From an uncultured Clostridia bacterium (GTDB lineage: Bacteria > Bacillota > Clostridia > Oscillospirales > CAG-272): a stretch of 10,862 nt of DNA. Every line of letters starts with the position of its first letter. Position 1 is the first letter of the stretch. The notes beneath the pieces were generated by a model, which was not told where the DNA came from, did no database searches, and saw only the letters and a program-made list of their open reading frames with translations. The position numbers were made by a program, and so were the translations under genes. Positions 1 through 10,862 of the stretch are shown piece by piece. The stretch is from contig CAMGCN010000010.1 of NCBI GenBank assembly GCA_946040935.1, positions 1 to 10,862 of the forward strand. The letters run 5' to 3'.

Positions 1-45
1 ACACCTCAGCCTTCGTCGGCAGCGTCAGATGTGTATAAGAGACAG
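1..45 (+). other. Illumina Nextera adapter (non-genomic)
   Basis: Bases 13-45 match the Nextera read-1 transposase adapter. Its last 19 bases (27-45, ending in AAGAGACAG) are the Tn5 mosaic end. Bases 1-4 (ACAC) fit the end of the P5 primer and bases 5-12 then occupy the 8-base i5 index position. The order P5 tail, index, adapter, insert is exactly that of a library molecule, so this is untrimmed sequencing adapter and not a natural transposon. Genomic sequence begins at about base 46. Confidence 0.98.
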
Positions 46-490
46 GAATAAAGAAATGTTTTACTTTAGAAAGAAAAAGCCGTGTTTTGGTTTTGATTTT
101 CTTGGTTTCTCTCATGAGCGGCAACCGCCTCTCATATTTTTTTAACTTTTCCGAGCCGCGCTCGATATGCTTTCCGTCACGGTTTATCGCGCTGACTAAA
201 GCGACTATCTGCTCGCGCTTTATACCGTATTCGAGCTTGTACTGATTGTCGCCGCACATTACAAAGGCTCCGTCCTTTTCCGACACTATGCGGTGCAAAA
301 CATAAACTCCGTTTTCCCTTTGGTACAGGACGATGTCTCCTATACGAGCGTCGTCAGCCGCGCTCAGCTCTACGCTGTCTATGCCCGGACGCAAAAGGGG
401 GAGCATGCTCGTCCCGTTCGGTATAAATGTGAAAATACCGCCGGAAGACACCGCCCTGTCTATGAGGGGGCGCATCTGTGCGACGGTCAT
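46..490 (-). CDS. S24/S26-family (signal-peptidase-fold) peptidase, 3' end cut by contig end
   Basis: This is a partial gene of 148 codons, starting at the ATG at 490-488, four bases after the PqqD-like stop. The protein has the signal-peptidase-fold motifs in order: GTSMLPLL with the candidate nucleophile Ser28, then GDIVLYQ near 51-57, YVLHRIV with His66 where bacterial type I signal peptidases normally have a catalytic Lys, and CGDNQ with Asp81. Ser/His use resembles the SipW/ER-type branch. I see no N-terminal membrane helix, unlike housekeeping LepB, so it is probably soluble or held by partners. The basic tail (residues 115-147) suggests the true end is near. From base 45 leftward the frame continues into adapter, which would add a false C-terminus. 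It is the last visible gene of the 1901-46 operon. The fold is fairly sure; the substrate is unknown, and a LexA-like S24 regulator is less likely because no DNA-binding domain is seen. Confidence 0.8.
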
Positions 491-494
491 TTGT

Positions 495-758
495 CTATTC
501 AAGGGCGCCTGCCTTTTCAAGCGTTCTGATAAAGTCCTGTGCGCTTTCTTTGGCGACTTCTTCGCTTACTTCATATTCCTGCGTCATGGCCTTGACTATT
601 CCGTCGAGGTCTGCGCCTTTTTCGAGCAGATCCCATATAAACTTTCCGCTGTCGTTGAGAGTTATCATACTTTTGAACGTCTTTGACAGCTCGCCCGTTG
701 CGATGACTATGTTTTCCCCGCCTACACGGCTTACTAAAAATCCCTGTTTAATTTTCAT
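495..758 (-). CDS. PqqD-family small protein
   Basis: The 87-residue protein has the PqqD-like pattern: an N-terminal beta segment (VSRVGGENIVIA), the signature LNDSGKFIWDLLEKG at about residues 34-48, then helical EEVAKESAQDFIRTLEKAGAL. PqqD-like domains are winged-helix peptide-binding modules (RiPP recognition elements) that present leader peptides to modifying enzymes; stand-alone members also occur beside HPr-kinase-like and S24/S26 genes. The ATG at 758-756 is preceded by GGGAG (765-769) at 6-base spacing and lies inside the end of the kinase-like gene (11-base overlap), so translation is coupled. No pqqA/pqqE is visible, so PQQ synthesis is not implied. Family assignment is confident; the role as a peptide-binding adaptor for its neighbours is inference. 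Confidence 0.85.
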   Translation of the reverse strand: MKIKQGFLVSRVGGENIVIATGELSKTFKSMITLNDSGKFIWDLLEKGADLDGIVKAMTQEYEVSEEVAKESAQDFIRTLEKAGALE

Positions 759-1464
759 TTTTTACTCCCGTGATTGTACTGTATGACAGTTTAGCCGCGT
801 CTTGAGAAATATCGCAGCCTAACCGCCACGTATCGGTATATTCTAAAGTTTTGTCTACAAGAGAAAGAATTTTTGAAAGCTTGTCCGCTTCACTCGGACG
901 AAAGATTTGCCCCATTATCAGGCGTGCCGCGATTTTTTTGTCAAGCGGCCGGATAAAGTTTTCAGCAGAGCGCTCGAGATATATTATTCCCTTAAGACGC
1001 GCGCATCTGTTCTTGCTCCAGTTTTCCTTACCGCACCAGGGACTTCCGCAGGCATACGGAATGCCGTCTTTCAGGCGTATTATCGGCTTATCTCCGTTTA
1101 TTATGTCCGCTCTTTCTCCGAGCAGTTCACGCAAAAGTCTTGTGTGGGTGGATTTTCCCGTTCCGCTTTTTGCCGTTATGGCATAGCCCTCTCCGTCTAT
1201 GGTAAAGGCGGAGGCGTGCATTATATAAGCGTCAAACTCAGGCAATATAAGCCCCAGCTTTCTGTGAGCGCATACACTCTCACAGTATCCGCGTGAATAC
1301 TGTCCCAAGGGACCGGCCATCTCTTTGTCTATCTCTTCTTCGCTCACGCAAAGGCTGATTTGCGCTTTCGTCTCGTCACACTCATATTTTTTGCATAGCT
1401 TGGGTAAATAGGAGTATTTTGCGGCGATTTCAATATTGATTCCTGCAATTTTATATAACTGCAT
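748..1464 (-). CDS. HPr-kinase-like P-loop protein
   Basis: The 238-residue protein has a Walker A motif AKSGTGKST at residues 98-106 (Lys104), an INGDKPII segment with an acidic residue (Asp125) where HPr kinases place a catalytic Asp, a Cys/Trp-rich SPWCGKENWS segment (141-150), and a C-terminal LGCDIS motif (215-220). The layout fits the HPrK/P-like serine-kinase family. At 238 residues it is shorter than true HprK (about 310) and lacks its N-terminal regulatory domain. Some homologues phosphorylate lasso peptides, so a peptide or protein substrate is possible. Start ATG 1464-1462 overlaps the stop of the upstream membrane-protein gene (TGATG), and its own end overlaps the PqqD-like gene; both point to translational coupling. 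Kinase activity on a neighbour, or simple nucleotide binding, cannot be decided from sequence. Confidence 0.8.
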   Translation of the reverse strand: MQLYKIAGINIEIAAKYSYLPKLCKKYECDETKAQISLCVSEEEIDKEMAGPLGQYSRGYCESVCAHRKLGLILPEFDAYIMHASAFTIDGEGYAITAKSGTGKSTHTRLLRELLGERADIINGDKPIIRLKDGIPYACGSPWCGKENWSKNRCARLKGIIYLERSAENFIRPLDKKIAARLIMGQIFRPSEADKLSKILSLVDKTLEYTDTWRLGCDISQDAAKLSYSTITGVKNEN

Positions 1465-1901
1465 CAGTTGTCACCGAAACTAACATAGGGAAGCTCAAAC
1501 GTATTCCCTGAATTTGGATTAAAAGGACCTGACTCTGTTTCGCCTTGTGTTTCTTTATCTGTTTCTTTATTGTCTGTTGTCTCTGTACGGTTTTCGGTTT
1601 CCTCCTCGGACCCGTCGAGCGTATCATATTCTATATAATCGCCCGGAAGAGCGTCATCATTGCTTTCGTCGGATGCCGAAGAGACGTCGTTTTCTTCCTG
1701 TGACGGAATGGAAGCTTGCTTTTCGTCACTGCTCTCGTCTGTCCCGCTGTACTGATTTTGAGAGGAGCTTGTTTTGTCAGAGTTTGCGTTTTGTTTTTCT
1801 CCGCCTTTAACTGCGAATATAACGGCGATTACCGCCGCGATCAGGATAAGCGCGGCCGCGATAATAACGATTGTTTTCTTATTATCCAAAAACTTTTTCA
1901 T
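1464..1901 (-). CDS. Single-pass membrane protein with acidic Ser/Thr/Glu-rich tail, unknown function
   Basis: I do not recognise a family. The 145-residue protein has a basic N-terminus (MKKFLDNKK), one hydrophobic helix at about residues 10-31, then about 100 residues of low-complexity, strongly acidic Ser/Thr/Asp/Glu/Asn/Gln sequence, ending in a more ordered, partly hydrophobic stretch, NTFELPYVSFGDN. The membrane segment lacks a clear signal-peptidase site, so an anchored protein with an extracellular flexible tail is most likely. It is the first gene of the operon and its stop overlaps the kinase-like start. The many Ser/Thr residues and the distinct C-terminus make it a possible target of the kinase-like, PqqD-like and S26 proteins encoded next; this is inference. 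There is only one Met, so the start at 1901-1899 is forced, although no Shine-Dalgarno precedes it. Confidence 0.75.
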   Translation of the reverse strand: MKKFLDNKKTIVIIAAALILIAAVIAVIFAVKGGEKQNANSDKTSSSQNQYSGTDESSDEKQASIPSQEENDVSSASDESNDDALPGDYIEYDTLDGSEEETENRTETTDNKETDKETQGETESGPFNPNSGNTFELPYVSFGDN

Positions 1902-1907
1902 AGTTAT

Positions 1908-1936
1908 ATTTTACAACAAATAGGCTTTCATGTCAA
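1908..1936 (-). promoter_or_regulatory. Promoter of the membrane protein/kinase-like/PqqD/S26 operon
   Basis: On the minus strand a perfect -35 TTGACA (1931-1936) is followed after 17 bases by a -10 TAAAAT (1908-1913). Only six bases separate the -10 from the ATG at 1901, so the expected start of transcription falls at or next to the A of the ATG. This, with the absence of a Shine-Dalgarno, suggests a leaderless transcript. Confidence 0.7.
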
Positions 1937-2073: not shown

Positions 2074-2113
2074 CAAATAAAAAGCGCTGTAAAAACTTGC
2101 GTTTTTACAGCGC
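2074..2113 (-). terminator. Rho-independent terminator of the lipoprotein operon
   Basis: A perfect 13-bp stem (2084-2096 pairing with 2101-2113, ending GCGC) closes a 4-base loop. On the minus strand it is followed by a TTTTATTTG tract (2083-2075). It lies 28 bases after the stop of the downstream lipoprotein copy. The plus-strand side is also T-rich, so it may work in both directions. Confidence 0.85.
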
Positions 2114-2141
2114 CGTTTTAGATTTAATTTAGAACTTGTAA

Positions 2142-3019: not shown

Positions 3020-3841
3020 TTAATCGGTGAATATGTTCTCCACTCCGGCGAACTGTGCGTCGAGCTCGGGCACGGTCTTGTTCTGATCGATTTCAAAGTC
3101 CTTCAGCGTGCCGTCCTCGTTGTATACAATATCAAAACTGTAGGTGTAACTGTTTTTATCTTGGAAGAATTCCTCTTTTTCTTTTTGAATAAGCTCTTCA
3201 AAAGCCGAGCGGTCTACCTCAAAGATTTTGATAAGTTCAAGCATGCTGATTTGATTTGAGTAGTTTATTTTATCGATTTTGCTTTCTATCAGAGCTTTTT
3301 CTTCGTCGGTTTTATTTAGGTAATTTTCCTGCTCTTTTCCGTACTCTATTACATCGCTCTTTAATCTATACAATCTCAATCGCTTGTCTAAGGTCTTTCT
3401 TCTGTTTTCAATATCTCTGTAATAGTCTTCTATTGCCTCGAGGTCATCCGAATAAAGCAGGTTGACATTATGGATACAGTAGGGAATGTCGTTGCAGTAT
3501 TGTTCAAATGTTTCCCGCGGAATTTGGAAAAAGTCGATGAATGCCTTGACATTGCATCCGTATTCTGAGCAATCGCTCTGTACGGTTTTTCTGTTTTCTG
3601 CCACAGTGCCGAACCAGTCCATGACCGCGTCGTCGTCGCCGACTAAATCGGTTAATCCGGTATCAACTACATGAAATTGTCCGTGGTGAACCTCGCAAAA
3701 ACCGGTTCCTCCTATCGCGTCCGAATTTTCGGTGTTTTCGGACTCGGACGGTTGTTCGGACGGGGCGTTTACTTGTGAGCATGACGCTAAAACTGTCAAT
3801 AACATACATAAACAAATGATTGCCGATATAATTTTTCTCAT
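3020..3841 (-). CDS. Putative lipoprotein, tandem copy B (first in transcript)
   Basis: This is a 273-residue lipoprotein of the same unrecognised family as copy A: lipobox LASC with Cys21, a Ser/Glu-rich linker to about residue 45, then an acidic helical region with the two related segments at 101-116 and 203-218. Unlike copy A it carries an extra cysteine (His96 in A is Cys96 here) and differs around 41-60, 78-84, 96-97 and 144-163. A strong Shine-Dalgarno GGAGG (3849-3853) stands 7 bases before the ATG (3841-3839), and a consensus promoter lies further upstream, so this is the leading and probably better expressed copy. An envelope or sensing role can be guessed from lipidation only; no binding or catalytic motif is evident. 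Confidence 0.87.
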   Translation of the reverse strand: MRKIISAIICLCMLLTVLASCSQVNAPSEQPSESENTENSDAIGGTGFCEVHHGQFHVVDTGLTDLVGDDDAVMDWFGTVAENRKTVQSDCSEYGCNVKAFIDFFQIPRETFEQYCNDIPYCIHNVNLLYSDDLEAIEDYYRDIENRRKTLDKRLRLYRLKSDVIEYGKEQENYLNKTDEEKALIESKIDKINYSNQISMLELIKIFEVDRSAFEELIQKEKEEFFQDKNSYTYSFDIVYNEDGTLKDFEIDQNKTVPELDAQFAGVENIFTD

Positions 3842-4175: not shown

Positions 4176-5957
4176 TCATGTGTTATCTTTATGATATCGC
4201 ATGATTATAGACGCGCATTGTGCACGGGTAGCGTAACCGCGCGGATTTATTACCGTTTCGCTCATTCCCGTGATATACTTTTTCGCGTTCGCCCAAACAA
4301 GAGAAGTCTTTGCAAATGTGCTGGCATCACGAAAGTCGGTGTATTTTGACATATCGACAGTCGCGTCGACGTCGACGCCTTTATAGTTTGCATATCTGTA
4401 AAGTATGCAGACGAACTCCTCGCGGGTAATGGGCATGTCGGGAGAGTAGTGGCTGCTGTCTATTCCAACGACGAGTTTGCTATTATAACCCCATTTTATT
4501 GCTTTTTCATGCCATGCGCCCTCCGGAACATCCACAAAAGGATTCGTCATGTCTTCTGTTGAGGGCCTTCCCTCCAAATTATACAGGATTTGAACGAGCA
4601 TAGCACGGGAGGTCAGGGAGGAGGGGGAGAAAAACACCTTGCTTGTTCCCGACATCAGTGAGTTTTCGTACACATATTTCACCGCTTTGTGAATCCAGTC
4701 TCCGTTTTGAGATACGTCTATAAACGGAAAGTTGAACTCCGGCTTTTCAAGTCCGGTTATCGTAAATGTATATTCTTTGGGAAGGGTGCCGTAATTCGGA
4801 GTTATCGAGTATGTGACGGTATTTAATCGGAGCACAATGCCGAAAACCTTTCCTTTTGCCGTGTCGGGCGTGAGGAGAGTTTGAGAGTCTTTGCTTATCA
4901 GGGAATATGCTTTTATTTTTGTCGGCGTATTATAAACCAGATAATCTCCGTACCGTGACAGGCCGGAAAAGCTGTCTGTATAGTAGGAGTTTTCCGTCGA
5001 CCACTTGACATTCTCGGGATAAATGCAGTTTTTGCCGTCTGTTTCACAGTCATATGTGCATATGCCCTTATCAAAACAGTAGAGCGTGTCATCGACATAA
5101 ACAAACGGCGAGAGTATATCCCTATACTGCTTATTCTCATATCTTGTATCAGTACACGGATAGTCGGCGTATGTCGTGAGGTGCTCTGCCTCATACTCGT
5201 TCGCGTCCGAGTTTAGAAAATAGTTATGATGGACTATTCCCTTTACATCGTGCGCCGGGTCGGTAAATATCGGATCGTCCCAGGCTACATCGACATTATA
5301 CCAGGATTCGCCTAACTTCACGAGATTCCATAAATGATTTATCTTGTTACTTTCTGCAAAGGCGTTTTCAATTCCGCATTTGTCGAGCAGGTATTTATAA
5401 AACAGTGAATACGCCTGACATACTCCCTTTTTCGTCTTGATAAAGGTGTATATGTCCGAGCTTGTATAAGTATCGTCGTAGCTGTAGTATTCGACTATTT
5501 TGTCGTGGAGAATCAGCGCCTTTTCAAAATCGTCCATAGAGTCTTTTACAGACAATAATATATCGTTTGCCTCTGCTTCTACTTCCGCCAAAGCGGTATT
5601 GTATGCTACCTTGTTTGGAATTTTATATACGGGCAGGAAATAAGACAGATATTTTTCGTCTTCCGTCAGGCAGTACTGATACTGATTGGAAATATGAAAA
5701 AACTCCGGGTAATTGCGAATAATATTTAAGTAAAAATCAGAGATTTCTTCAAGGGGGATTCTGTATTGAGAAAGGTCTACGACGGTTTTGTATTTTCTTA
5801 TTCCGTCTGCGAGCTTTTCCTGTGCGCTTTCATACGCGGGATTTGCGCTGAGAAAGATATCCGCCTTGCCCGTGTGTACAGCGCCGTGCGAGGCAAAAGC
5901 GGGCATGCCCGAAAGGACAATGATAATCGATAGAGTAATTGCGAGCAGCTTTTTCAC
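4176..5957 (-). CDS. Secreted transglutaminase-like protein with three C-terminal SLH domains
   Basis: The 593-residue protein starts with a signal peptide (basic MKK, hydrophobic core, cleavage probably after AFA at about residue 23). Residues about 140-230 form a transglutaminase-like domain with the expected Cys-His-Asp order: GVCQAY (Cys180), NHLWN (His208) and WYNVDVAWDD (Asp223). Residues about 280-400 are beta-rich with repeated Tyr/Asp and no clear family. Three S-layer homology domains follow at about 411-460, 473-525 and 538-589, with SRAMLVQILYN, TREEFVCILYR and TRAQCASIIMR. The protein is therefore exported and attached to secondary cell-wall polymer, where it could act as a peptidase or transpeptidase; crosslinking is not shown. 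The start is GTG (5957-5955), chosen because AAGGAG stands 7 bases upstream and the signal peptide begins there. It lies 69 bases after recG with its own promoter. Confidence 0.92.
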   Translation of the reverse strand: MKKLLAITLSIIIVLSGMPAFASHGAVHTGKADIFLSANPAYESAQEKLADGIRKYKTVVDLSQYRIPLEEISDFYLNIIRNYPEFFHISNQYQYCLTEDEKYLSYFLPVYKIPNKVAYNTALAEVEAEANDILLSVKDSMDDFEKALILHDKIVEYYSYDDTYTSSDIYTFIKTKKGVCQAYSLFYKYLLDKCGIENAFAESNKINHLWNLVKLGESWYNVDVAWDDPIFTDPAHDVKGIVHHNYFLNSDANEYEAEHLTTYADYPCTDTRYENKQYRDILSPFVYVDDTLYCFDKGICTYDCETDGKNCIYPENVKWSTENSYYTDSFSGLSRYGDYLVYNTPTKIKAYSLISKDSQTLLTPDTAKGKVFGIVLRLNTVTYSITPNYGTLPKEYTFTITGLEKPEFNFPFIDVSQNGDWIHKAVKYVYENSLMSGTSKVFFSPSSLTSRAMLVQILYNLEGRPSTEDMTNPFVDVPEGAWHEKAIKWGYNSKLVVGIDSSHYSPDMPITREEFVCILYRYANYKGVDVDATVDMSKYTDFRDASTFAKTSLVWANAKKYITGMSETVINPRGYATRAQCASIIMRYHKDNT

Positions 5958-8257: not shown

Positions 8258-10862
8258 ATGGACTACATAACGAAAAACATCGACGGTATAGAACTCGAGT
8301 CACTGAAGAGGGGCGCGCTTCCCGAGCTTGCGGAGCTTTCGAGAAAAGCGGCCTCGGACGGTGCGGTTCTTTTGAAAAACGAAAACAACGCGCTTCCTTT
8401 CAGAAAAGGCGAAAAAATCTCGATTTTCGGAGCAACTCAGCTTGCGTATATAAAGAGCGGAACGGGCTCGGGCGGACGTGTAAACAGCCCATACGAAACA
8501 GATATTCCTTCGGGCTTGCACAGACATGTTGAGATAAACGAAGAGCTTTACGAAACGTATAAGTCATGGTGGCGGGAAAACCGCGACAAGAGCGAGTACG
8601 GCTGGGCGAGCCAACCCTGGTGCAATCCCGAGATGCCTCTTGACGAAAAGACGGCATGCGACGCGGCAAAAAAGAGCGACGCCGCACTCGTTGTCATCGG
8701 AAGAAGAGCCGGTGAAAACAGGGACAACAGCGCAGAAGAGGGAAGCTATTATCTTACGTCAGTTGAGATAGAAATGATGAAAACCGTCCGCGCGGCGTTC
8801 GACCGCGTTGTCGTCGTACTCAACGTGGGAAATATTATAGACATGGCGTGGGAGAAAAGCGTTTGTCCCGATGCGATTATGTATGTTTTCCAGGGCGGAA
8901 CGGAGGGCGGAAACGCCGCGGCAGACGCGCTCTGTGCAGTGAACGGACCGAACGGCAGACTTACCGATACTATCGCTGAAAAAATTACCGACTATCCCTC
9001 TGATAAATATTATTACGAAAATGACAAGACATACTACGGCGAGGATATTTACGTAGGTTACAGGTATTTTGAGACTTTTTCACCCGACTCTGTGATGTAT
9101 CCCTTTGGATTCGGTCTGTCATATACGAAATTTGAAAGAAACGTCAACCTCGTTTACGAGGATAAAGACAGCATCACCGTGAGCGTAACCGTTAAAAACG
9201 CAGGCTCCTTCGAGGGACGCGATGTTGTACAGGTATACTTCGGAGCGCCGCAGGGAAAGCTCGGAAAGCCTGTTAAAGAGCTTGTTGCGTTTTCTAAAAC
9301 AGAGCCTCTCTCCCCCGGGATGAGCGAGACGATTTTGCTTGATTTTAAGATTTCCGACATGGCCTCTTATGACGACTCGGGCGTGACGGGCAATGCAAAC
9401 TGCTATGTGCTCGAGGCAGGAGATTACATAATCTACTGCGGAGAAAACGTGCGCGACGCGGCGGCGGTTTATACTCATACAGAAAAGGAATGCCGCGTGG
9501 TTTCAAGACACGAGGAGCTTCTTTCCCCTGTTGAAAAATTCAAGAGATTAAAACCCGAATTCAAGGACGGAGCCTTTGTTGAGTCAAGCGAGGACGTACC
9601 CACAAGGAGCTATGACCTTGACGCGAGAATAGCCGCCGATATCCCCGAAGAAATTAAGCAGACGGGCGACCGCAAAATTAAGCTTTACGACGTTGCCGAG
9701 GGTAAGGCGACGCTTGACGACTTTGTCGCACAGCTCGGTGATGAGGAACTCGCAGTTCTCTGTAAGGGAGAGGGCATGAACTCTCCAAAGGTAACGGCAG
9801 GATGCGGCTGTGCATACGGCGGAACAAACGAAAAACTCAATTCCTACGGCATACCGGCCGTATGCGGAACAGACGGACCCTCGGGCGTTCGTATGGAGGA
9901 CGGCTCTCAGGCGACATATATCCCGGGCGGCACGCTTCTTGCCTGCACGTGGGATCCCGATCAGGTGGAAAAGCTTCACACTTATTTCGGCATTGAGATG
10001 TTCGTAAATAAGATTGATACCATTCTCGCACCGGGCATGAATATCCACCGTCACCCGCTGAACGGCAGAAACTTCGAATACTACTCTGAAGATCCGCTCC
10101 TCACGGGTAAAATGGGAGCGGCGGCAACACGCGGCGTTGCCGTGACGGGAGCGACCACGACGATAAAGCATTTTATATGCAACAACCGTGAAACCAACAG
10201 ATACGAATTGGATTCGATAGTTTCCCAGAGAGCTATAAGAGAAATTTACGCAAAGGGCTTTGAGATAGCTGTCAAGGAGGGGGGCGCCCGTGCAGTTATG
10301 ACGAGCTACAACCCAGTCAACGGAATATGGACGGCGTCAAACTACGACCTTTGTACTATGCTTCTTCGCCGTGAATGGGGCTTTGACGGCTTCGTCATGA
10401 CCGACTGGTGGGCAAGCGTCAACGGATTTGCAGGCGACGAGCCGACGGGAGATAAACTTGCATACATGGTGCGCGCACAGAACGACGTTTATATGGTTGT
10501 CGCCGACGCGATTACATTCCCCGACGATATCCTCTCGGCGATGAAAGAGGGCAGGCTTCCCCGCGGTGTTGTACAGCGCAGTGTGAAAAATCTGCTTAAG
10601 TATATCCTCTCTACTCCCGCGCTCGTTCGTGAGAGCAGAGGAGAGGGCAAAAAGCTCCTCGGGCTTGAAAAGGTCGCCGACACTCTTACTCCCATACTCG
10701 ATAAGGATAATCCCGAGAGCGGAGAAGAAACCGTCGTTAATTTAGAGAGAAACAAGACAGTGCTTTTGCGTGTGACGCTTACATGCGACGCGCCCGCGCT
10801 CGTACAGGAAAATGTGACCGTCATGGGCGGAAATACCGGACTCACCACGCTGTGTGTACACT
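8258..10862 (+). CDS. GH3 family beta-glycosidase with inverted domain order, 3' end outside window
   Basis: The frame stays open from ATG 8258 to the window end (868 codons). It has no signal peptide, so it is probably cytoplasmic. The usual GH3 order is reversed: the alpha/beta sandwich domain comes first (about 25-280, with VVIGRRAGENRDN near 150, where the acid/base Glu region is expected, and FQGGTEGG), then YPFGFGLSYT (281-290) and a fibronectin III-like domain (about 306-395). The TIM barrel follows from about residue 474, with GTDGPSGVR, GMNIHRHPLNGRNFEYYSEDP-type sequence, IKHFICNNRE (Lys637, His638) and FVMTDWWA, in which Asp716 is the expected nucleophile. This permuted arrangement is known from Ruminococcus albus and Butyrivibrio beta-glucosidases. 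An extra tail after about residue 780 is partly visible. Likely substrates are beta-glucosides or other short beta-linked oligosaccharides; specificity cannot be read from sequence. Confidence 0.93.
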   Translation, partial: MDYITKNIDGIELESLKRGALPELAELSRKAASDGAVLLKNENNALPFRKGEKISIFGATQLAYIKSGTGSGGRVNSPYETDIPSGLHRHVEINEELYETYKSWWRENRDKSEYGWASQPWCNPEMPLDEKTACDAAKKSDAALVVIGRRAGENRDNSAEEGSYYLTSVEIEMMKTVRAAFDRVVVVLNVGNIIDMAWEKSVCPDAIMYVFQGGTEGGNAAADALCAVNGPNGRLTDTIAEKITDYPSDKYYYENDKTYYGEDIYVGYRYFETFSPDSVMYPFGFGLSYTKFERNVNLVYEDKDSITVSVTVKNAGSFEGRDVVQVYFGAPQGKLGKPVKELVAFSKTEPLSPGMSETILLDFKISDMASYDDSGVTGNANCYVLEAGDYIIYCGENVRDAAAVYTHTEKECRVVSRHEELLSPVEKFKRLKPEFKDGAFVESSEDVPTRSYDLDARIAADIPEEIKQTGDRKIKLYDVAEGKATLDDFVAQLGDEELAVLCKGEGMNSPKVTAGCGCAYGGTNEKLNSYGIPAVCGTDGPSGVRMEDGSQATYIPGGTLLACTWDPDQVEKLHTYFGIEMFVNKIDTILAPGMNIHRHPLNGRNFEYYSEDPLLTGKMGAAATRGVAVTGATTTIKHFICNNRETNRYELDSIVSQRAIREIYAKGFEIAVKEGGARAVMTSYNPVNGIWTASNYDLCTMLLRREWGFDGFVMTDWWASVNGFAGDEPTGDKLAYMVRAQNDVYMVVADAITFPDDILSAMKEGRLPRGVVQRSVKNLLKYILSTPALVRESRGEGKKLLGLEKVADTLTPILDKDNPESGEETVVNLERNKTVLLRVTLTCDAPALVQENVTVMGGNTGLTTLCVH

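Follow-up and report, generated by a model that had tools for sequence, protein, structure and literature searches.

The gene sets closest to the one described here occur in certain lasso peptide clusters of Firmicutes, among them those of paeninodin and pseudomycoidin, which combine an HPrK-like kinase with a discrete RiPP recognition element (RRE; RiPP, ribosomally synthesized and post-translationally modified peptide) of the PqqD/B1 type. According to passages of PMC8498205, the kinase phosphorylates the precursor at its C-terminal Ser, and the phosphate receives hexoses from a nucleotidyltransferase that is in some cases fused to the B2 protease. The SynChlorMet cassette likewise pairs a kinase-like protein, ScmC, with a PqqD partner, ScmD. 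Sections of the RRE-Finder report (PMC7470986) count almost 8,000 discrete lasso RREs, of which only ~4,000 occur with lasso enzymes. Here we analyze an operon from an uncultured Clostridia bacterium in which a kinase of this kind (K) and a PqqD protein (D) are joined by a serine protease of family S26 (S) and preceded by a membrane-anchored tail protein. It lies in a stretch of 10,862 nucleotides, hereafter the window (contig C10, CAMGCN010000010.1, of the 1.26-Mb assembly GCA_946040935.1, which is 68% complete). We consider it fairly probable that this operon encodes the core components of a RiPP-type system in which peptides are matured in trans under the guidance of the RRE. No description of such a system was recognized in the openly licensed literature searched. 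The four open reading frames (ORFs) of the operon are as follows.

46..520, minus strand: soluble S26-type serine protease (S), probable leader peptidase; Ser38/His76; start at TTG 520 or ATG 490; 3' end cut
495..758, minus strand: PqqD-family RRE (D), lasso-B1-like, probable leader-peptide binder; 87 aa; PF05402 at E 8.9e-17, over cut-off
748..1464, minus strand: P-loop kinase of the PEPCK/HPrK fold (K); 238 aa; Walker A SGTGKSTH at residues 100-107, Asp125
1464..1901, minus strand: membrane-anchored Ser/Thr/Glu-rich tail protein; 145 aa; C-terminus FELPYVSFGDN

K, D and S form a conserved module. We compared 112 kinase-centered loci (the window, 31 stretches from relatives and 80 genome contigs kept of 587 confirmed; L041/L120 and L039/L128 are near-duplicates), and counted as neighbors those ORFs on the kinase strand within 1.5 kb that were matched by profiles grown from the window proteins on these loci. 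D was a neighbor of the kinase in 85 of the 112 loci, S in 63 and both in 59, with the order K-D-S in 57; the counts for D and S are probably lower bounds because the profiles are narrow. In the 1.50 Mb of kinase-centered DNA, 86 of 88 PqqD matches and 63 of 65 S26 matches were kinase neighbors. The original prediction, made from the letters of the window, had grouped four families; their co-occurrence holds for the kinase, PqqD and S26 proteins but not for the tail protein, which is not conserved as a family. The recurrence of K-D-S in other genomes shows that the arrangement is no accident, and the reality of the operon is confirmed.

Further genes accompany the module in some relatives. ATP-binding cassette (ABC) transporter-like ORFs (BLAST cluster c2) are present in 26/112 loci (27 of the 33 ORFs are on the kinase strand), and the BLAST cluster that holds NTP_transf_5 proteins contains 21 non-S26 ORFs. 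The order K-D-S-ABC-c1 was found in seven loci (L097, L116, L123, L127, L132, L140 and L143). In L123 the ABC protein was confirmed by PF00664/PF00005 and PF14907 (NTP_transf_5) was matched at E 5.8e-37, and in L100 the S26 protein is fused to PF14907. Other loci vary the theme: L084, L085, L086, L090 and L104 have K-D followed by a cluster c7 ORF instead of S26 (DUF1846, PF08903, checked on L085). Faecalibacterium/Blautia-type loci (L081, L133, L077, L089 and L067) have Cys-containing leader peptides, and a radical SAM cluster c11 ORF near the kinase in L081, L067 and L077 might mark a cross-linked subclass. Radical SAM identity was checked on L081, L118, L069 and L064.

A fold search placed the kinase in the PEPCK/HPrK superfamily, which bears out the kinase-like P-loop enzyme of the original prediction. 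The protein reaches no curated family cut-off; its identity is clear by fold or profile. In kinase alignment A1, for which 31 of the 120 listed homologues were chosen, S100, G101, G103, K104 and D125 are invariant in 31/31 sequences, the window included. D125 would be catalytic, judging from the fold, and with P-loop and Asp intact throughout, these proteins are predicted to have retained ATP binding, whose loss the original prediction had named as fatal to it. A PDB sequence search with the kinase returned only P-loop matches, mostly ABC proteins, plus a weak PEPCK match. ScmC is the closest named model, found in 25/31 members (best E 1.6e-10). The SynChlorMet cassette nevertheless differs: the window kinase scores 24.5 bits against ScmC, far under the 125-bit cut-off, and no radical SAM enzyme was among the window proteins scanned. 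HPr kinase/phosphorylase differs too, since the kinase studied here has an N-terminal part of its own and belongs to an operon with an RRE and a protease. Most of the 120 listed homologues carry the Pfam number PF27840, and the best-matching named loci come mostly from metagenome-assembled genomes of Clostridia. In a kinase tree, which omitted 2 of the 112 kinases for length, the window kinase had no supported sister group. A virus-borne origin was considered and rejected, as a kinase scan of viral_contigs gave no relative. Separately, L062, L063 and L064 represent a divergent kinase subfamily (ORFs of ~290-310 aa) with longer peptides starting MKK.Y.KP, perhaps a sister system; L063 and L064 also have a radical SAM cluster ORF.

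The PqqD-type domain had also been predicted, and PF05402 recognizes it over cut-off, as listed above. The PqqD profile matched the lasso RREs TbiB1 (5v1u, E 6.5e-10) and TfuB1 (6jx3, E 1.3e-7) in the PDB. Against the PqqD model for PQQ biosynthesis, which has a cut-off of 46, the window protein scored 22.5 bits. PqqA, PqqE (radical SAM) and PqqC were not among the window proteins scanned, the left side of the operon being missing. The RRE adjoins predicted modifying enzymes, as expected of an RRE-dependent RiPP system. It looks like one of the orphan discrete lasso RREs of RRE-Finder, with the difference that a likely enzyme set and a precursor family can be named here. In several relatives, a second PqqD-like domain recurs apart from the operon in an ORF of ~460-480 aa (e.g., G000:C119:3776-3934).

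As to the third enzyme, the Ser peptidase of the original prediction stands: Ser38, His76, Arg77, Gly90 and Asp91 are present in 63/63 aligned S26 proteins, the window included (proteins of 110-210 aa; those outside this range were omitted). A transmembrane anchor is a feature of S26 signal peptidase I, and a transmembrane-like stretch is absent from all 63 (no 19-residue window with mean hydropathy >1.6). The window protein reaches no curated cut-off (27.8 bits vs 51.85 for TIGR02228); of 32 aligned S26 proteins, the window's among them, 27 match TIGR02228 and 5 match the SodX-type TIGR02754. The likeness is to SEC11 and to archaeal and SipW-type signal peptidases, and the S26 profile matched SEC11A in the PDB (E 0.0014). 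SodX, a soluble S26-type protease that acts in the maturation of Ni-SOD, is a useful comparison. Parts of PMC3919588 present it as the cognate peptidase of SodN, a protein processed at its N-terminus. The TIGR02754 matches and the role of a cognate peptidase of one protein are the points of similarity; substrate and operon are different, and the window protein has no TIGR02754 match at E 0.001. The S26 gene meets the contig end after ~159 codons, and aligned relatives, chosen at 138-172 aa, finish near that point.

A family of short peptides accompanies these enzymes in relatives. A 47-residue ORF beside the kinase in L040 matched 19 small-ORF rows (16 distinct ORFs), and a leader model seeded with such peptides gave 34 rows, 33 at E <0.01; in both searches, all were on the kinase strand. 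The peptides have the leader consensus M..[YF]xx[PAL]..E...F..ED[VI]ITxS and a variable core, and the spacing from Y/F to Asp is 14 in 37/40 readable rows of the leader set A5. None of 28 members matches any Pfam or NCBIfam model. In a database search, the leader profile gave at least 6166 matches at E 0.01 among the best 7999 scored candidates. At the T-x-S junction, Thr is present in 116 and Ser in all of the 117 readable top database peptides, the ranking of which biases the top 120 toward the consensus, and Thr in 33/40 and Ser in 35/40 A5 rows. Signal peptidases follow a small-residue rule, and T-x-S fits it. Gly and acidic residues abound in the cores, and Lys and Arg are scarce. Beyond the junction, Ser, Thr and Tyr are all absent from 16/117 readable top database peptides and from 2/40 A5 rows; only 15 of the 117 cores end in Ser, and 102 do not, which rules out phosphorylation of a C-terminal Ser as the general rule.

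These cores help to judge whether the operon is a stripped-down lasso tailoring set (kinase, B1 and nucleotidyltransferase) that has lost its cyclase and B2 or serves a distant cluster. The RRE is closest to lasso B1, and YxxP, a known lasso RRE motif, is present in many of the leaders. A kinase and a nucleotidyltransferase are, in the portions of PMC8498205 and PMC7533575 that deal with them, known tailoring genes of Firmicutes lasso clusters. However, the lasso B2 model PF13471 matched in 5 of 59 genomes, twice over cut-off and never near a kinase match, with 0 matches in the window assembly (68% complete), and the cores that lack Ser, Thr and Tyr or are not Ser-ended are unlike the target of the paeninodin kinase. 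The place of B2 is occupied by S26: when the B2-nucleotidyltransferase fusions mentioned in the same source (PMC8498205, in part) are set alongside the S26-NTP_transf_5 fusion of L100, S26 appears to sit where B2 would. An asparagine-synthetase-like cyclase was not among the 9 window proteins scanned, the left side being cut, and was not searched for in relatives. We regard a lasso tailoring set as very unlikely. An ordinary lasso or PQQ cluster, which the original prediction had already dismissed, is unsupported as well, given the model scores and the absence of B2 near the kinase. In comparison with the paeninodin and pseudomycoidin clusters, this system shares the HPrK-like kinase, the discrete PqqD/B1 RRE, YxxP in part of the leaders and, in some relatives, a nucleotidyltransferase (sometimes protease-fused) and an ABC exporter. 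It differs in having S26 instead of the transglutaminase-like B2, dispersed peptides that are often paired with secreted proteins, and acidic/Gly-rich cores mostly without a C-terminal Ser.

The leader family tracks the kinase across genomes. In a class sample of 243 genomes, the window's own included (kinase at E 1e-20, leader at E 0.001), 67 had a kinase match, full-length in 41, and 30 had leader peptides. A full-length kinase was present in 29/30 genomes with leader peptides vs 12/213 without (Fisher p 7e-27). Among 59 relatives, own genome included, 29 had the kinase and 22 had A5 leader matches, all 22 of them with the kinase (p 1.7e-10); with the narrower model A4, 16 of the 59 had leaders, again all 16 with the kinase. 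Without the window's genome and the 10 that had supplied sequences to the model, A5 leaders were found in 12/18 genomes with the kinase and 0/30 without it (p 2.7e-7). Because of shared ancestry, and because G053 is in both the A4 seed and the class sample, these figures describe an association, not independent events. One genome can have as many as 19 leader peptides (G240), spread over many contigs.

This association also tells against the view that there is no peptide product at all, and that the operon encodes an HPr-like regulatory kinase and a signal-peptidase- or SodX-like S26 protease for one protein, the leaders being unrelated small ORFs. The fold match to HPrK and the resemblance of S26 to SEC11, SipW and SodX-type peptidases would suit that view; yet it leaves the RRE, and the kinase in 29 of the 30 genomes with leaders, unexplained, and we give it scarcely any credence. 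Together with the co-occurrence of K, D and S and the intact active sites, the tracking of the kinase by the leader family instead supports, as far as sequence can, the phosphorylation/proteolysis or RiPP-like peptide processing that had been predicted.

Many leader peptides are encoded behind genes for secreted proteins. The first pairing set comprised 22 leader peptides on 20 hand-picked stretches of five genomes (a further 12 stretches were also hand-picked), and an upstream gene was counted if it was on the same strand, encoded >=100 aa and ended between 20 bases inside and 120 bases before the peptide. A qualifying gene was found for 19/22 leader peptides, at gaps of -8 to +48. By our own simple rule, this gene encodes a signal peptide for 16/22 leader peptides vs 126/1414 control genes (p 1.7e-12); for three more, the start of the upstream gene was cut off. 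In eight kinase loci (L040, L046, L076, L079, L083, L094, L138 and L143), a leader peptide is situated behind a large cluster c3 protein, and these c3 proteins have a similar C-terminal domain.

From the gene families, their conservation and co-occurrence, and this gene pairing, we infer the following course of maturation. The PqqD protein would bind the conserved leader of short precursor peptides and bring these within reach of the kinase and the protease. Phosphorylation by the kinase would fall on a hydroxyl residue; since Ser, Thr and Tyr are all missing from some cores, this may be a residue of the conserved T-x-S, where leader and core meet. The S26 protease, replacing the lasso B2 protease, would remove the leader at the same junction, where small residues are at -3 and -1. 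In some relatives, an ABC exporter and the NTP_transf_5 enzyme may finish and export the product; the latter may be comparable to the nucleotidyltransferase that adds a sugar to the pseudomycoidin phosphate. One K-D-S set would serve several peptides encoded in trans, many of them directly behind genes for large secreted proteins, a position that makes these proteins the probable partners or targets of the product. The peptide of the window is presumably encoded elsewhere. It is also conceivable, and we offer this only tentatively, that the whole is a dedicated peptide-partner system, in which a central RRE-kinase-S26 machine phosphorylates, trims and exports peptides that complete, anchor or regulate their cognate secreted proteins.

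Several observations weigh against the main reading, RRE-guided peptide maturation in trans. The leader pattern was not found in the window, and model A4 had no match in the window's own genome (68% complete). The one A5 match there (C5:7551-7718, a 55-residue ORF) is weak, at E 0.018, and lies 132 bases behind a dipeptidase gene, not a secreted-protein gene; nor was PF14907 found in this assembly. The original prediction had seen no radical SAM enzyme, transporter or classical precursor in the window; no radical SAM enzyme was among the window proteins scanned, and transporter and precursor exist in relatives only. No A5 leader match was found in 7 of the 29 relatives with the kinase, the window's own genome among them, and only 6 of ten genomes chosen around near kinase loci had an A4 match. 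G277 is the exception in the opposite direction: it has leader peptides paired with large secreted proteins and no kinase match at E 1e-20. The Fisher values given above overstate independence, as the genomes are related by descent. In the window's genus, G003 encodes, one after another, the kinase, a lipoprotein-like protein of 869 aa and two leader-like peptides; however, neither PqqD nor S26 was found beside this kinase, which is at a contig start, and of the two peptides the second is a weak match (E 0.0047 in a small set). G001 and G002, of the same genus, had neither kinase nor leader matches. The lasso-like motif is uneven too: Pro is found at Y+3 in 35/43 A5 rows, whereas only 35 of the top 120 database peptides have Pro there and many have Ala (55) or Leu (25), so YxxP is not universal in the leaders. 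Finally, in a second pairing set (n = 18; L174, L178 and L179 were left out as duplicate or doubtful), an upstream gene was found in 13 cases, with a signal peptide in 3, none in 4 and the start cut off in 6; downstream of 4 leader peptides of this set there is a signal-peptide gene. Overall, leader peptides are commonly but not always paired with secreted proteins.

For the tail protein, roles as accessory, anchor or second substrate are all conceivable. Used as a database query, it found nothing at E 0.001, not even itself, and its own genome gave only weak matches. Its ORF is the weak point of the operon, as it has no Shine-Dalgarno sequence and its codon usage is uninformative; that it is translated is argued from the overlap of its stop with the kinase start and from the absence of a clear Shine-Dalgarno sequence before the kinase. 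The pattern LP[FY]V.[FA], picked after inspection, occurs at the C-terminus of 5 of the 15,068 ORFs of the 112 kinase loci, all on the same strand and upstream of the kinase. The carriers are in the window, L045, L046 and L143, the last with two, one of which is the leader peptide itself: there the lipoprotein carries it as ELPFVPAF and the leader peptide as ELPFVPAE. A filter that required an exported protein whose end lies shortly before the kinase selected 16/112 loci; many of the proteins are lipoprotein-like and rich in Ser, Thr and Glu. The window was missed, as its tail gene has no Shine-Dalgarno sequence. At most, then, the tail protein is conserved as a kind: exported, Ser/Thr/Glu-rich and, in four loci, with a similar C-terminal motif.

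On this evidence, the adjacent tail protein or lipoprotein could itself be the substrate: the system would modify or trim the C-terminal motif (LP[FY]VxF and the like) of membrane-anchored surface proteins, with the leader peptides second and optional. The overlap of the tail gene with the kinase start, the exported proteins of the 16 loci, the exclusively upstream position of the motif and its presence in both the lipoprotein and the leader peptide of L143 all speak for this. On the other hand, the filter found no such protein in 96/112 loci, the motif is common to four loci only and was chosen post hoc, and the kinase and S26 look cytoplasmic whereas the tail protein is exported. We therefore consider a tail substrate unlikely and, under the preferred reading of leader-guided maturation in trans, would see the tail protein as an accessory or a second substrate. 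A role in antiphage defense was rejected: the kinase, the PqqD and S26 proteins and one NTP_transf_5 protein had no PADLOC match, and the weak PD-T4-6 matches of the tail protein (6.7e-7 and 7.5e-4) fall on the anchor and the low-complexity part.

If the RiPP-type reading is right, some of the orphan lasso-like RREs left aside by genome mining gain both a set of enzymes and a precursor family. Should the pairing with secreted proteins prove functional, the surface proteins of gut Clostridia would be connected with peptide maturation of the RiPP type. If the peptide-partner system suggested above exists, surface-protein maturation by RiPP logic would form a class of its own, apart from antibiotic-type RiPPs.

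The layout of the operon was as originally described, with all four genes overlapping or no more than 4 bases apart. The tail stop and the kinase start overlap (TGATG at 1464), the kinase and PqqD ORFs share 11 bases, and 4 bases separate PqqD from the S26 ATG. The overlap of tail stop and kinase start, together with the lack of a clear Shine-Dalgarno sequence for the kinase, suggests translational coupling. Three further features delimit the operon.

1908..1936, minus strand: sigma-70-like promoter TTGACA-17-TAAAAT; 11/12 consensus positions; 7 bases before the tail ATG
2083..2114, minus strand: intrinsic terminator-like hairpin; 14 pairs, then a T-rich tail
1..45, no strand: library adapter artifact, not genomic; exact Nextera read-1 adapter at 13-45

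The single promoter of the original prediction has a strong candidate in the site at 1936-1908, although the promoter scan as a whole (4 sites vs 2.9 in shuffles) was not above chance and only this site was strong. From its position, the tail-gene transcript is predicted to be leaderless or near-leaderless. The hairpin at 2114-2083 parts the operon from an upstream lipoprotein gene. At the other end, bases 13-45 are an exact 33-nt match to the Nextera read-1 adapter sequence. Genomic DNA therefore begins at 46, the left end is artificial, and any part of the operon beyond the S26 gene has been lost.

Elsewhere in the window, 2142-2963 and 3020-3841 are tandem genes for lipoprotein-like proteins of 273 aa each, identical at 782/822 bases; they represent a recent duplication and match no Pfam family above cut-off. 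A secreted protein with a transglutaminase-like core and SLH domains is encoded at 4176-5957. A GH3 glycosidase at 8258-10861, cut by the window end, has its C-terminal domain preceding the N-terminal domain (residues 37-289 and 524-780).

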